Of a stretch of 6,451 nucleotides of DNA, positions 1,028 to 6,020 are shown in pieces. The DNA comes from Actinomycetota bacterium (lineage in GTDB: Bacteria; Actinomycetota; Thermoleophilia; Solirubrobacterales; Solirubrobacteraceae): the NCBI GenBank assembly GCA_005888335.1, contig VAWY01000213.1, forward strand, positions 1 through 6,451. The letters run 5' to 3'. Position 1 is the stretch's first letter. Every line of letters begins with the position of its first letter. The translations under genes and the position numbers were made by a program. A model generated the notes under the pieces. That model saw only the letters and a program-made list of their open reading frames with translations. It had not been told where the DNA came from and searched no databases.

Positions 1028-3184
1028 CTAAGCGACGGCCACGTCGGCGGTGGCGCCGACCGTGTGCCGCAGGAACGGCTCGACGAGTCTCCCGACTCCG
1101 TCGGGGTCGTCGGCGAACGGCCAGTGGCCGCTGTCGTCGAGTATCGCCACGTCGGCGCTGGGGAAGGCCTCGCGCTGGCGTTCGGCCTGGGCGACCGGGA
1201 TGTACGGGTCGTGCGCGCCCCAGACGACCAGCGCGGGCCGATCGAACGGGCGTAACGCATCGGCGTGGCGGCGCCCGACCGCGGCGGGGTCGCCGGTCGC
1301 GCGGTACAGCCGCAGGATGGCGCGCTTGGTTCCGGCATCCGTGTCGTCGTACATCCGGTCCACGAAGGCCCGCGGCAGTCCGCGCGGGTTGCCATGGCGC
1401 AGCGCGAAGCGCAGGCCGCTTCGTGTCGTGGTGGCCTGGAAGAGCTCGCCGGCGATCGGCGTGCGCCAGATCCGGGCGAGGTAGTGCCAGTGGTAGTCGA
1501 TCAGCGCCCCGGTGTTGATCAGCACCGCGCTGGCGAGGCGGTCGGGGTTGCGCGTCGCCCACTCCAGTCCCCAGGGGCCGCCGAAGTCGTGCAGGACCAG
1601 GTGCGCCCGTTGCACGCCGAGCTGCTCGAGGGCGGTCGCCAGGAAGCGGGCGTACCCTTGCACCGTGTAGTCGAAGTCCGCCGGCTTGCTCGCCTTGCCG
1701 AAGCCGGGCATGTCGAGCGCGAGCGCCCGCGCGAACGGGCCGACGCGCGAGAGCAGGTCGTCCCAGTCGCGCGACGAGCCAGGATTGCCGTGTACGAAGA
1801 CGACGGCCTCGGTCGCGTCGTGCGGGCCGGTGGAAGACAGCGGCACGGTCACCTCGCCGACCGTCACGCGGCTGCGCGCGACGGCGGCCGGCGGTGGCGG
1901 ACCGGCGGCGTGGGGGCCCGTCGGGCGCTCGACGTCGGCGCCGTCTCGGCGCGTCGCCGTCACCTTGATCGCCCGGGCGATCGTGCGCGCGAACTCGGGA
2001 TCCGTCGCCCTGATCGAGCGCGAGCCGAACGCGTGAAAGCCCTCGCCGACCGTCTTGTCCTTCACGCCGGCCGAGAAGAGCAGCTTCTCGAACCCGTTCA
2101 GACGGCGCCCGGTCGCGTAGTCCGAGGTCAGCAGGTAGTGCCCCAGCAGCGCGCGACGATGCCGCTTGCGGTAGCGCTCCAGGGCCGCGTCGACGACGGT
2201 CTCGGACCCGTCGGCCAGCGCCCCGCCAAGCTCTTCTGCGAGCCACTCGCCGGACTGGAACGCGAAGCCGCAGCCCACGCCCCAGAGTGGATCGGCGGCC
2301 ATCGCCGCGTCGCCGACGAAGGCCAGCCCCGGCCCGGCCGCGGGGCGCATCGTGTTAGGCATCTCGAGCTTGCCGAGGATCTTCGACGTGCGCGTACCGC
2401 GCGCCAGATCCGGCGCGTTGGGCAGCCCCCGGAAATAGGCCTCGAAGTTGGCTTCCAGGTCACGCTTGAACCACGAGGCCCGGTCCTTGGTCTGAAACGT
2501 GGCCAGCAGCGTGAGCCCGTCGTCCTGGGGGAACGCGTAGGCGATGTCCGGGTCGAGGAACCAGAAGAGCGTGCGGTCACCCGACACGAGCGGCAGATCC
2601 CGGTAGTAGGCGTAGTAGCCGAAGCGGTCGTGGCGCTTCACGCGCGCCCGGACGCCGGCCATCCGCGCGACGTGGGAGTCGCGGCCGTCAGCGGCGACCA
2701 CCGCGCGCGCGGCGATCTCGCGCTCGGAGCGGTCGCGGCTGCTCAGGCGGACGCCGCTGGGGCGACCGGGGTAGCCGAGCAGGCCCGTGGCCGTATGCCC
2801 GAGCAGGAGGTCCACGCCCGGCGTGGCCGCGGCGAGATCGCGCAGCATCGGGTCGAGCTTCTCGCGGCGGATGTCGTAGCCGTATTTCGGGTGTGGGTAG
2901 TCGGGGCCGGGCACCGGGCGCAGCCAGCCGTACCGGCTCCAGACCTCTAGGCCGTTGCGGACGCCGCCGGCGGCCTCGATCTTCTCGGCGACGCCGAGCC
3001 GCTCGATCGTCGGCGTGGCGCTGGCCTGGATGAAATGGGTGCACATCGTCTTGTAGAAGCCCGGCTCGCCACGGCGCTCAACGAGCGCCACCCGCGCACC
3101 CTGGCGGGCCAACAGCACGGCCGCGGTGCATCCCGCCAGGCTCGCTCCCACCACGGCCACGTCGTACCGCGCCCCGTCGTCCAT
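1028..3184 (-). CDS. FAD-dependent monooxygenase-like / alpha-beta hydrolase fusion protein
   Basis: This 718-residue protein has two enzyme domains in one frame. Residues 1 to about 408 are a flavoprotein-hydroxylase-type FAD domain. It has a Rossmann glycine motif (VVGASLAG, G13/S15/G18) ending in an acidic residue (E36), a DG motif (VVAADGRDS, D166-G167), and the C-terminal GD motif (FVGDAAMAADPLWGVGCG, G291-D292) used for FAD ribityl contact. About 30 Pro/Ala/Arg-rich residues (408-438) link it to an alpha/beta hydrolase (about 438-706). That domain has an oxyanion-hole motif HGNPG (465-469), nucleophile Asp533 in HDFGG, acid Asp659 in GAHDP, and His687 in SGHW. An Asp nucleophile points to the epoxide hydrolase/haloalkane dehalogenase branch, not to esterases. 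A channelled oxidise-then-hydrolyse reaction is plausible but inferred. Both domains look intact. The ATG at 3184 is set by AAGGGAG (3198-3192) seven bases upstream. No signal peptide is seen, so it is probably cytoplasmic. Confidence 0.9.
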   Translation of the reverse strand: MDDGARYDVAVVGASLAGCTAAVLLARQGARVALVERRGEPGFYKTMCTHFIQASATPTIERLGVAEKIEAAGGVRNGLEVWSRYGWLRPVPGPDYPHPKYGYDIRREKLDPMLRDLAAATPGVDLLLGHTATGLLGYPGRPSGVRLSSRDRSEREIAARAVVAADGRDSHVARMAGVRARVKRHDRFGYYAYYRDLPLVSGDRTLFWFLDPDIAYAFPQDDGLTLLATFQTKDRASWFKRDLEANFEAYFRGLPNAPDLARGTRTSKILGKLEMPNTMRPAAGPGLAFVGDAAMAADPLWGVGCGFAFQSGEWLAEELGGALADGSETVVDAALERYRKRHRRALLGHYLLTSDYATGRRLNGFEKLLFSAGVKDKTVGEGFHAFGSRSIRATDPEFARTIARAIKVTATRRDGADVERPTGPHAAGPPPPAAVARSRVTVGEVTVPLSSTGPHDATEAVVFVHGNPGSSRDWDDLLSRVGPFARALALDMPGFGKASKPADFDYTVQGYARFLATALEQLGVQRAHLVLHDFGGPWGLEWATRNPDRLASAVLINTGALIDYHWHYLARIWRTPIAGELFQATTTRSGLRFALRHGNPRGLPRAFVDRMYDDTDAGTKRAILRLYRATGDPAAVGRRHADALRPFDRPALVVWGAHDPYIPVAQAERQREAFPSADVAILDDSGHWPFADDPDGVGRLVEPFLRHTVGATADVAVA

Positions 3185-3970: not shown

Positions 3971-4043
3971 CTGCCGCCGCACCTGGAGGGCGTCCCCGAG
4001 TGCCTGCGCCGGTTCGAGCCGCGCTCCTGCGGCGAGTGGTTTG

Positions 4044-5063
4044 ATGCAGCCGATGACCCAGCAGCAGCGGGAGAAGGCGCAGCGGCTCCTCGACGCCCAG
4101 GTCGAGTTCCTCGAGGCGGAGATCGCCGACGAGCGCTTCGCCGAGCTCGTCGAGGAGGAGATCGATCGGGTCCTGAGAGATGCAAGCCAGCTGACCTTGA
4201 GCCAGGTGGTCAGCCGCGACCAGATCAGCGCGGTCGCGCGCAAGTACGCGACGGCAATAGAGATCCACGGCTCCATCCCCGAGCTCATGGGTGAGATCAC
4301 GGAGCGGGTGTACAGCCACCGGGCCCACGATCAGAGCCGCATCGGCGACGTCATCGCCCAGCGGCACGTCGCGGCTCTCGCCGGCAAGCTGCTCACGATG
4401 CGGACGCTGCGCCAGCGCTTGTTCGAGCGGCTGGCCGAGAACCCGCTGGCCGTCACGTGGCTCTCGTGGCTGCTGTATCGCCTGGTGGCAGAGGTCCGCG
4501 AGCGTGCCGAGCACGTGCCGGGCGTGTCGTCGCTGGTGGCCGGCGGCCGGCGGGCGGTGGGAACCGTGGCGCCCGGCGCGGGACGCGACCTCGACCTGCG
4601 ACTGCACGAGCTTGCCGAGCGCGCGGCCCAGCTCGTGCTGCGCAAGGCGGAGCAGTCGAGCGCCGGGGCAACCGATCAGGCGCCGCTGTTCGATGCAGTG
4701 ATGGACCTGTACGCCGATCTCGCCACGGAGCCCGTCAGCCTCTTCCGGCAGGTCGTCTCCCGGGACGACCTCGAGGACCTGCTGGTGATCGGCTACGAAT
4801 TCTGGCTGGACTTTCGGGACACTGACTACCTACGGTCGCTCGTCGATGAGGGCATCGTCTTCTTCTTTGACAAGTACGGAGACTTCACGCTGCGTGACCT
4901 GCTGGCGGAGATGGGGGTGGGGCGGGAGGATCTGGTAGAGGAAGCGCTGCGCTTCGGGCCGCCGGTGATCGCCGTGCTCGCGGAGAACGGGATGCTCGCC
5001 GCCTTCCTTCGCCGCCGCCTCGAGCCGTTCTTCTTCTCGGAAGCCGTGCTGGCGCTTCTGTGA
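4044..5063 (+). CDS. Conserved-looking helical protein of unknown function
   Basis: This is a 339-residue protein with no domain I can name. It is almost entirely alpha-helical, rich in Glu, Arg and Leu, with no signal peptide and no clear membrane span; the segment NPLAVTWLSWLLYRLV (about 133-148) is the most hydrophobic. Distinctive stretches are VVSRDQISAVARKYA (55-69), IHGSIPELMGEI (74-85), the linker HVPGVSSLVAGGRRAVGTVAPG (157-178) and VIGYEFWLDFRDTDYL (248-263). The 'VVSRD' phrase occurs twice (55-59 and 238-242), hinting at an internal duplication. Similar hypothetical proteins seem familiar to me from proteobacteria, but I cannot name a family. Two in-frame codons compete as start: TTG 4041 and ATG 4044. 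A weak GGCGAG (4031-4036) favours ATG 4044; ATG 4053 has no such site. It stands alone, with decayed sequence upstream and the MerB-like gene about 300 bases downstream on the same strand. Confidence 0.85.
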   Translation: MQPMTQQQREKAQRLLDAQVEFLEAEIADERFAELVEEEIDRVLRDASQLTLSQVVSRDQISAVARKYATAIEIHGSIPELMGEITERVYSHRAHDQSRIGDVIAQRHVAALAGKLLTMRTLRQRLFERLAENPLAVTWLSWLLYRLVAEVRERAEHVPGVSSLVAGGRRAVGTVAPGAGRDLDLRLHELAERAAQLVLRKAEQSSAGATDQAPLFDAVMDLYADLATEPVSLFRQVVSRDDLEDLLVIGYEFWLDFRDTDYLRSLVDEGIVFFFDKYGDFTLRDLLAEMGVGREDLVEEALRFGPPVIAVLAENGMLAAFLRRRLEPFFFSEAVLALL

Positions 5064-5360: not shown

Positions 5361-6020
5361 GTGGACGCGCGCGATCTCGAGCTCCGCAACTCGACGTACG
5401 CGATGTTCGCGAAGCTCGGTCGCGCCCCTACGGTTGGCGAGGCCGGACGCGCGGCGGGACTGACGAGCGACGAGGTCGAAGCGGGATGGCGGCGCCTGCA
5501 CGACGGTCACGCACTCGTGCTCGATCTGGGCACAGTCGAGCTTCGGATGGCGAACCCGTTCTCCGCGGTGCCGACCGCCTACCGGGTACAGGCGGCCGGC
5601 CGTTGGTGGTACGCGAACTGCGCGTGGGACGCATTCGGGATCTGCGCGGCGCTGCACGTCGACGGCCGCATCGAGACGTCGTGCCCGGATTGCGGCGATC
5701 CGCTCACGATCGAGGTCCTCGATCAGCGCCCCGGCGACGAAACCCTGCTGTTCCACAGCCTTGTGCCGGCCGCCCACTGGTGGGAGGACATCGTCTTCAC
5801 CTGAAGCACGATGAACCTCTTCCGGTCGGAGGAGCACATCGAGCGCTGGCTCGCCGGGCGCCCACCGGGGACGATGATCCCGGTGACCAAGCTGTGCGAG
5901 CTCGCGCATGACTGGTGGGGCGACCGGCTGTCACCCGACTGGCGGCCCCACACCCGCGACCAGAACCAGGCGATCCTCGACAACCTCGGGCTCACCGGGG
6001 AGTTCTGGCGGCTTCCCTGA
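5361..6020 (+). CDS. MerB-like (alkylmercury lyase family) protein with in-frame UGA at the third catalytic Cys position; candidate selenoprotein
   Basis: Read through one in-frame TGA (codon 148), this gives 219 residues, close to the 212 of classical MerB. MerB cleaves the carbon-mercury bond using Cys96, Asp99 and Cys159. Residues 1 to about 70 resemble the MerB winged-helix half (PTVGEAGRAAGLTSDEVEAG). YANCAWDAF (84-92) matches MerB's 'AWCALD', giving Cys87 and Asp90. ETSCPDCGDPLTIEV matches 'SHCAATG', giving Cys108; the 21-residue spacing equals Cys96-Cys117. WWEDIVFT-TGA-STMNLFRSEEHIERW matches the 'FC..HFF.S....W' block, placing the TGA at Cys159. The downstream part, to GEFWRLP and the stop at 6018-6020, is intact. 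GTG 5361 is the only start codon after the in-frame stop at 5322, and no ribosome binding site is seen. Without readthrough, a 147-residue protein lacking that ligand would result. Family: confident. Selenocysteine: likely, unproven. Organomercurial activity: untested; no other mer gene is present. Confidence 0.85.
5802..5804 (+). other. In-frame UGA, candidate selenocysteine codon (position 148)
   Basis: TGA interrupts the MerB-like frame exactly where homologues, as I recall them, read F-T-C-S-T followed by LFRSEEH. Other genes here (tetR, the 339-residue gene, and this gene's own end) use TGA as a true stop, so general reassignment is excluded and any readthrough must depend on local context. 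A nonsense change from TGC or TGT is the competing explanation. Confidence 0.6.
5817..5834 (+). promoter_or_regulatory. Candidate bacterial SECIS hairpin
   Basis: CTCTTCC (5817-5823), loop GGTC (5824-5827) and GGAGGAG (5828-5834) fold into a 7-bp stem with one G-U pair (5820-5831). Bacterial SECIS elements are stem-loops just after the UGA, with a small apical loop, a G among its first two bases, and a UGA-to-loop distance of about 16-37 nt. Here the loop begins with GG and starts 20 nt after the last base of the UGA (19 nt between). E. coli fdhF also has GGUC in its SelB-binding loop, counted from the UGA within one base of the position here. The fdhF-type bulged U is not obvious. Part of the pairing is forced by the FRSEE codons, so the fold alone is not proof. 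Confidence 0.55.

Follow-up and report, generated by a model that had tools for sequence, protein, structure and literature searches.

A MerB-family gene with an in-frame TGA at a metal-site column: a predicted selenoprotein and its relatives in Actinomycetota and Chloroflexota

MerB, SaoL and UAG-coded selenoproteins

In the organomercurial lyase MerB, mercury is held by Cys96, Asp99 and Cys159, and thiols displace the cysteines with the assistance of Asp99 (as described in PMC4525700). Small selones are reported to outpace their sulfur counterparts in the cleavage of Hg-C bonds (PMC11639659), and one MerB-like protein has been listed as a selenoprotein. This protein, SaoL (NF040728; Haft and Gwadz 2023 as cited in PMC13188914), is presented as a MerB-like organometallic lyase with the motif CU, and the same accession appears in PMC9312934 as an alkylmercury lyase MerB-like protein and a selenoprotein. 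Selenium in a relative of MerB is not new as an idea, since SaoL is so listed. The initial annotation of the locus reported here knew of no characterised selenoprotein MerB, a hint of novelty that has to be limited, SaoL having been published (PMC9312934, PMC13188914). In the open-licence papers searched, SaoL was the one MerB-like selenoprotein encountered, and this large family, its UAG-coded members and the two-TGA genes were not encountered.

The gene lies at 5361..6020 on the forward strand of the window, i.e., the whole stretch of 6,451 nt that was analysed. Like SaoL, its product is MerB-like and a predicted selenoprotein, and SaoL is its top NCBIfam match. However, this match reaches 41.1 bits, far under the SaoL cut-off of 140 bits, and the motif is TU in the window protein as opposed to CU in SaoL (the latter as given in a table). 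A further difference is that the window family was found mainly in Actinomycetota and Chloroflexota in the genomes drawn, with UAG-coded members in Geodermatophilaceae-type genomes. Regarding MerB and MerB2 (PDB 3f0o and 5c17), the identity in the structure matches is 15-20%, no mer operon was seen at the window gene, and the third metal ligand is predicted to be Sec instead of Cys. The models of classical MerB, NF033555 and NF009710, give scores under their cut-offs (34.2 vs 200 and 36.9 vs 193 bits). With the UAG-coded selenoproteins of Geodermatophilaceae, some members of the family share the UAG codon, a tRNA-Sec with the anticodon CUA and a downstream hairpin; they differ in kind, since those named in PMC5330540 are formate dehydrogenases, UGSC-motif proteins and AhpC, MerB not being among them.

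The window gene, its active-site columns and its predicted chemistry

The reading frame opens with GTG and comprises 219 codons followed by a terminal TGA. With the internal TGA taken as a residue, 219 residues are obtained, and the sole internal TGA is codon 148 (5802..5804, + strand), a predicted Sec codon in the column of MerB Cys159. The Pfam MerB model (PF03243, gathering cut-off 27 bits) gives 98.8 bits for the joined reading, 59.4 for the part before the TGA and 20.6 for the part after it. The 69-residue ORF downstream of the TGA (5811..6020, + strand) forms the C-terminal part of the MerB-family protein and is not counted as a separate gene. The modelled protein takes the MerB fold, in keeping with the PF03243 superfamily, and its best fold match is MerB2, the portion beyond residue 191-201 of 219 being outside the coverage of the MerB structures.

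Codons for the other site residues are found at 5619..5621 (Cys87, MerB Cys96 column), 5628..5630 (Asp90, MerB Asp99 column) and 5682..5684 (Cys108, MerB Cys117 column, nearly invariant), all on the + strand; the E. coli MerB numbering follows the initial annotation. In a phmmer alignment to MerB2 (5c17), Cys87, Cys108 and codon 148 stand opposite MerB2 cysteines, and MerB2 has a Ser at the place of Asp90. In a 54-row alignment with Sec shown as C, residue 87 never varies, and conservation reaches 90% or more in columns 90, 108 and 148. The classical Cys96/Asp99/Cys159 triad is not found as such, the third column being a TGA that is predicted to encode Sec; this in-frame codon aligns with the Cys of homologues, as in bacterial selenoproteins. 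The initial annotation had described a MerB-family frame broken by a single TGA at codon 148, and this observation is confirmed, as are its statements that the second half continues the family, that the key residues Cys87, Asp90 and Cys108 are kept and that the TGA falls in the Cys159 column. Its interpretation as a selenocysteine-containing MerB is supported by the sequence comparisons.

Under the proposed mechanism, SelB and tRNA-Sec would decode the UGA of codon 148 as Sec with the downstream hairpin as their site. The selenolate of Sec148, ionised at neutral pH, would take the organometal together with Cys87, a proton from Asp90 would release the hydrocarbon, and the metal would stay on selenium, sulfur and carboxylate until it is removed by exchange with small thiols. 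The reaction would be cleavage of a carbon-mercury, or similar carbon-metal, bond at a Cys87/Asp90/Sec148 site. As acceptor of the metal, a diffusible thiol would be likelier than MerA because the surroundings of the gene showed no mer operon. While the sequence tests make it almost certain that this is a real selenoprotein gene, MerB-type lyase chemistry is predicted with fair confidence, and the whole reading, a MerB-family gene with Sec at codon 148 and a C-Hg or C-metal lyase site made of Cys87, Asp90 and Sec148, can be called probable. The handling of mercury by the window protein is presumed from this likeness.

A selenoprotein with another job, such as action on another organometal, trapping of a metal or transfer of a metal, is a possible but less favoured reading. 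The scores of the window protein are far under the MerB equivalog cut-offs, as given above. Besides merB and its antisense frames, the only recurrent neighbours are two ORF clusters, each in 3 of 25 loci, and a Pfam search of neighbouring ORFs, 53 being selected at 16 loci, returned no family in more than 2 of the 53 among the families listed (25 of 77). Only 4 of 25 genomes have a MerA match over the cut-off, and no neighbour recurs in more than 3 of the 25 loci, which argues against an ordinary mer pathway. Selenium binds mercury very tightly, and this could slow the release of product. Against another job, the three catalytic columns of MerB are occupied by Cys, Asp and a predicted Sec, and MerB2 is the best fold.

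Several observations concern gene surroundings. In one Chloroflexota genome (G018, contig C3, 17210-19191 and 45005-45364), merA is found beside a Cys-type merB, with a Sec-type merB-like gene about 27 kb off; the presence of both types in a single genome suggests that they do different work. In the window itself, a 718-residue ORF (1028-3184, - strand) combines a FAD-binding domain with an alpha/beta hydrolase domain, and ORFs near merB at two other loci (L004:5706-6518, - strand, and L008:1-738) are similar to part of it. A 340-residue ORF at 4041-5063 has no Pfam match, and the 6,451-nt window gave no match in Rfam or ARAGORN searches.

That the window gene is simply SaoL in a new host is improbable. 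SaoL is the top NCBIfam match and a listed selenoprotein with a CU motif, and its 159-position model, extended without gaps, ends at about the codon-148 column. However, the window score is less than a third of the cut-off, eight of nine other members or relatives score 22-52 bits, the ninth (L139) gives no match, and no recurrent neighbours were found, either as ORF clusters or as Pfam families.

Conserved stop codon, hairpin and tRNA-Sec

A search of 5.8 billion proteins returned 5708 matches, of which 120 were listed. Among those listed, 115 end one residue before codon 148; a strict end motif identifies 112 of them, the others being P0028, P0042 and P0095. Four carry Cys at codon 148 (P0002, P0003, P0005 and P0029) and P0110 is frameshifted. 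The conserved stop is taken as beyond chance, and a chance frame was rejected. One match from JGI data, P0004, is 99% identical over 147 residues.

Genome surveys gave the same picture in DNA. A genome scan yielded 24 loci in 22 assemblies, with codon 148 being TGA in 19, TAG in 5 and a sense codon in none; one of these loci loses the frame soon past the hairpin, near a contig end (L022), and another has no start (L023). Of 396 Actinomycetota genomes drawn, 20 had a match at 1e-30, 18 with TGA or TAG at codon 148 (among them L074, frameshifted upstream, and L071, with an insertion and a second stop) and 2 with TGC. The class of G002, sampled with 249 genomes, gave 15 with a match, all having TGA at codon 148 and five of them repeating earlier genomes, and 76 genomes of the family of G003 gave 4 matches, 3 with TAG and 1 without a stop (G848, 36% identity). 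With the Pfam MerB model, 201 Chloroflexota genomes gave 34 matches in 25 genomes, 10 of which have one or more copies with an in-frame TGA. Over all surveys, the stop-bearing gene is present in 59 genomes: the genome scan contributes 22 of these, the phylum draw a further 17, the class draw 10 and the Chloroflexota 9, and the remaining one is G877. The initial annotation had looked to Cys-bearing homologues and to other genomes with TGA at the same codon, and both are found, the second in many lineages with the downstream half conserved. A merB-like gene on a Paraburkholderia plasmid (NZ_AP023181.1; L229:3001-3648), for which no annotation is listed, has Cys instead of Sec and CMWC where others have CAWD.

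Downstream of the window TGA, a bSECIS-type hairpin can be drawn at 5817..5834 on the + strand (CUCUUCC-GGUC-GGAGGAG), with its apical GGUC loop at 5824-5827, 19 nt after the TGA; a 45-nt stretch of the window folds at -18.1 kcal/mol (z -2.9). The constraints given for bacterial SECIS elements in PMC13188914 are a loop of 3-9 nt with G in the first two places, a stem of 4-16 bp, a distance of 16-37 nt from the codon and a folding energy of at most -7.5 kcal/mol. The window hairpin lies within them (loop GGUC, 7 bp, 19 nt, -18.1 kcal/mol). Among 44 stop-bearing sites, GGTC stands 19 nt past the codon in 42, on a stem 5 to 9 base pairs long; the exceptions are L021, with GATC (GAUC) on the same stem, and L071, with none. 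In 25 further loci, one of which repeats an earlier one (L145, of L018), GGTC is in place in 24, and L139 has a different hairpin. As a separate observation, the post-TGA insertion in L071 (G385) removes the GGUC hairpin, and a second stop is present.

Pairing was assessed on 40 sites, i.e., 46 minus two repeats (L024 and L056, of L020 and L003), two Cys homologues (L064 and L066), L071, which has the insert and no GGUC hairpin, and L074, which is frameshifted upstream. In these sites, 96.8% of the hairpin cells are paired, a value reached by 20 of 500 shuffles, vs 49-65% in slid versions. Both-sided changes occur in 3 of 7 pairs (4 of 500 shuffles reach this) and two pairs are invariant; the covariation score, reached by 40 of 500 shuffles, and the number of further pair types, reached by 178 of 500, are not striking. 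Codon choice inside the hairpin is nearly fixed across 22 sequences (Leu CTC in 21/21, Arg CGG in 21/22, Ser TCG in 22/22), while the 57 other four- to six-fold codons have a maximum of 0.94 and a mean of 0.54, none reaching 0.95. The Glu at +9 alternates between GAG and GAA, both of which pair. Some two- and three-fold codons just 5' of the TGA (Asp GAC, Ile ATC and Phe TTC) do not vary either. The hairpin motif is not kept in L064 and L066, both Cys homologues, L066 still folding well in a different way, and folds are weak in single relatives such as L001 (z -1.2) and L073 (z +0.5).

For tRNA-Sec, Rfam model RF01852 was used, and the anticodon was read with ARAGORN. Two components of the selenocysteine machinery that the initial annotation had proposed to look for are widespread in the relatives: tRNA-Sec (selC) was found in 43 of the 59 genomes with the stop-bearing gene, the other 16 including several small bins, and SelB is over its cut-off in 18 of the 22 scan genomes. 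In G020, a 228-bit SelB match under the cut-off lies about 1.4 kb from tRNA-Sec; in G005, G007 and G014, no SelB match could be distinguished from other elongation factors. Hits to RF01852 that ARAGORN reads as tRNA-Ser were not counted (G433, G556 and G618, at 49-52 bits, and likewise those in G005, G006 and G021), and tRNA-Ser genes pass the Rfam gathering score for tRNA-Sec in some genomes (L178, L179, L180). In the Actinomycetota draw, 206 of 396 genomes have a tRNA-Sec hit by RF01852 model score, mostly without ARAGORN, with 15 of 18 stop-bearing genomes against 191 of 378 others (Fisher p 0.007). The mere presence of tRNA-Sec says little since it is common anyway. In the cell from which the window derives, the Sec machinery and the insertion of Sec would be expected by analogy with these relatives.

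Unlike such presence, the match between codon and anticodon says much for the predicted Sec. In all 43 genomes with a tRNA-Sec the two agree, 37 having TGA with UCA and 6 having TAG with CUA (G003, G011, G013, G016, G019 and G877), with no mismatch. The CUA tRNAs are printed as tRNA-Pyl by ARAGORN, yet they score 64-67 bits with the tRNA-Sec model, and a SelB gene lies about 1.5 kb from the CUA tRNA-Sec in G003, G011, G013, G016 and G019. The use of UAG for Sec with a CUA tRNA-Sec in Geodermatophilaceae is already known, having reportedly been described by Mukai in 2016 (cited in PMC5330540). The chance of six TAG/CUA agreements out of six would be 1.6e-7 if the genomes were independent, which they are not, all being of one family; as all six cases are of Geodermatophilaceae type, they represent one evolutionary event or a few. 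Five TAG genes could be followed to their end and all terminate with TGA, so that TGA is a stop in those genomes. Twelve tRNA-Sec loci from the family of G003 (L194-L198, L200-L203, L211, L215 and L217) have UCA in 7 and CUA in 5, and since both occur within the family, the switch of the Sec codon may be dated inside it. Neither the hairpin nor the TAG variants had been noticed in the initial annotation, and together they are the strongest evidence for the predicted reading as Sec. The sequence itself shows the frame, the position of the codon and the hairpin, and the relatives show the agreement of codon and anticodon.

A true stop at the TGA, giving a 147-residue protein and leaving the 69-residue ORF from 5811 as a separate or untranslated one, is very unlikely. 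The predicted proteins of databases do end there, and an ATG lies three codons past the TGA; on the other side, TAG is found exactly where tRNA-Sec reads UAG, the hairpin is kept, and a 147-residue product would have neither the third site residue nor the end of the fold. Reading of the TGA as Cys or Trp by a suppressor or reassigned tRNA, with no selenium involved, was rejected as exceedingly unlikely: homologues do carry Cys in the codon-148 column, but the SECIS-type hairpin and the tRNA-Sec anticodon match, including UAG with CUA, argue for Sec, and many of these genes still end with TGA.

Selection was compared on the two sides of the codon, leaving out L009, L019 and pairs with a dS of 4 or more. 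The median pairwise dN/dS is 0.27 downstream of the TGA vs 0.17 upstream, and for the window against the other sequences 0.32 vs 0.16. One stop interrupting a frame that is good elsewhere could come from a pseudogene or a sequencing error, but this has a negligible probability and is contradicted for the family by the same-codon stop in 59 genomes and in 115 of the 120 listed homologues and by purifying selection downstream; a pseudogene was rejected accordingly.

Sulfur and selenium across the family

A tree was built from 47 of the 54 rows (at least 180 residues), with no TAG row among them; 22 of its 44 inner forks have support under 80%, and several branches are long. The merB rows nearest to the window are from Actinomycetota, including a Thermoleophilia bin. 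Three Cys rows, P0002, P0003 and P0005, group in a starred clade among Sec rows, the surrounding forks being unstarred, and the Cys row L064 is placed in another Sec group. By parsimony, the Cys/Sec label changes five times, two of the changes being forced by starred branches. This would fit one or more losses of Sec within this MerB branch, with the direction unproven.

Some Chloroflexota genes contain two in-frame TGAs, one in the Cys96 column and one in the Cys159 column. Five MerB-like genes of this kind were found, at L150:794-1495 (G018), at L143:239-952 (- strand), L151:839-1555 (- strand) and L152:803-1504, all three in G762, and at L142:1300-1944 (G636), the last being apart from the L150 type. 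A GGUC hairpin lies 3' of the second TGA in all five. After the first TGA, a possible stem with GCUGGC/GCUGGC arms and a five-base loop can be drawn in L150, L143, L151 and L152, but it is weak evidence because it is not always chosen in folding and its arms also occur in the Cys homologue L149. A query made of the 90 residues upstream of the first TGA returned 67 database proteins, of which 64 end just there; P0187 and P0188 carry Cys and stop at the second site, and one ends a few residues earlier. A tRNA-Sec with UCA is present in G018, G636 and G762. The L150 type occurs in 3 of 400 Chloroflexota genomes, namely G018, G762 (three copies) and G722 (a copy with one TGA). A further gene, L139:1306-1899 (G691), is closer to classical MerB (128 bits to NF009710) and has TGA followed by Cys at the Cys159/Cys160 place with its different hairpin, perhaps reflecting a separate origin of Sec.

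On balance, it seems rather likely that a widespread stand-alone branch of MerB has moved its metal site from sulfur to selenium, with Cys and Sec in Actinomycetota, UAG-coded where the anticodon changed, and two Sec residues, as a bis-selenolate, in some Chloroflexota. If so, annotation would have truncated no fewer than 115 of the 120 listed relatives, and probably many others among the 5708 matches, leaving them short of a catalytic residue, and surveys of mer genes keyed on Cys159 could miss them. The difference between TGA and TAG, matching the anticodon of tRNA-Sec, would constitute a clean natural control for the prediction of selenoproteins. The family would also provide natural enzymes with which to test the old idea of faster Hg-C cleavage by selenium ligands than by sulfur ones, and sulfur could be compared with selenium directly across its Cys/Cys, Cys/Sec and Sec/Sec forms.
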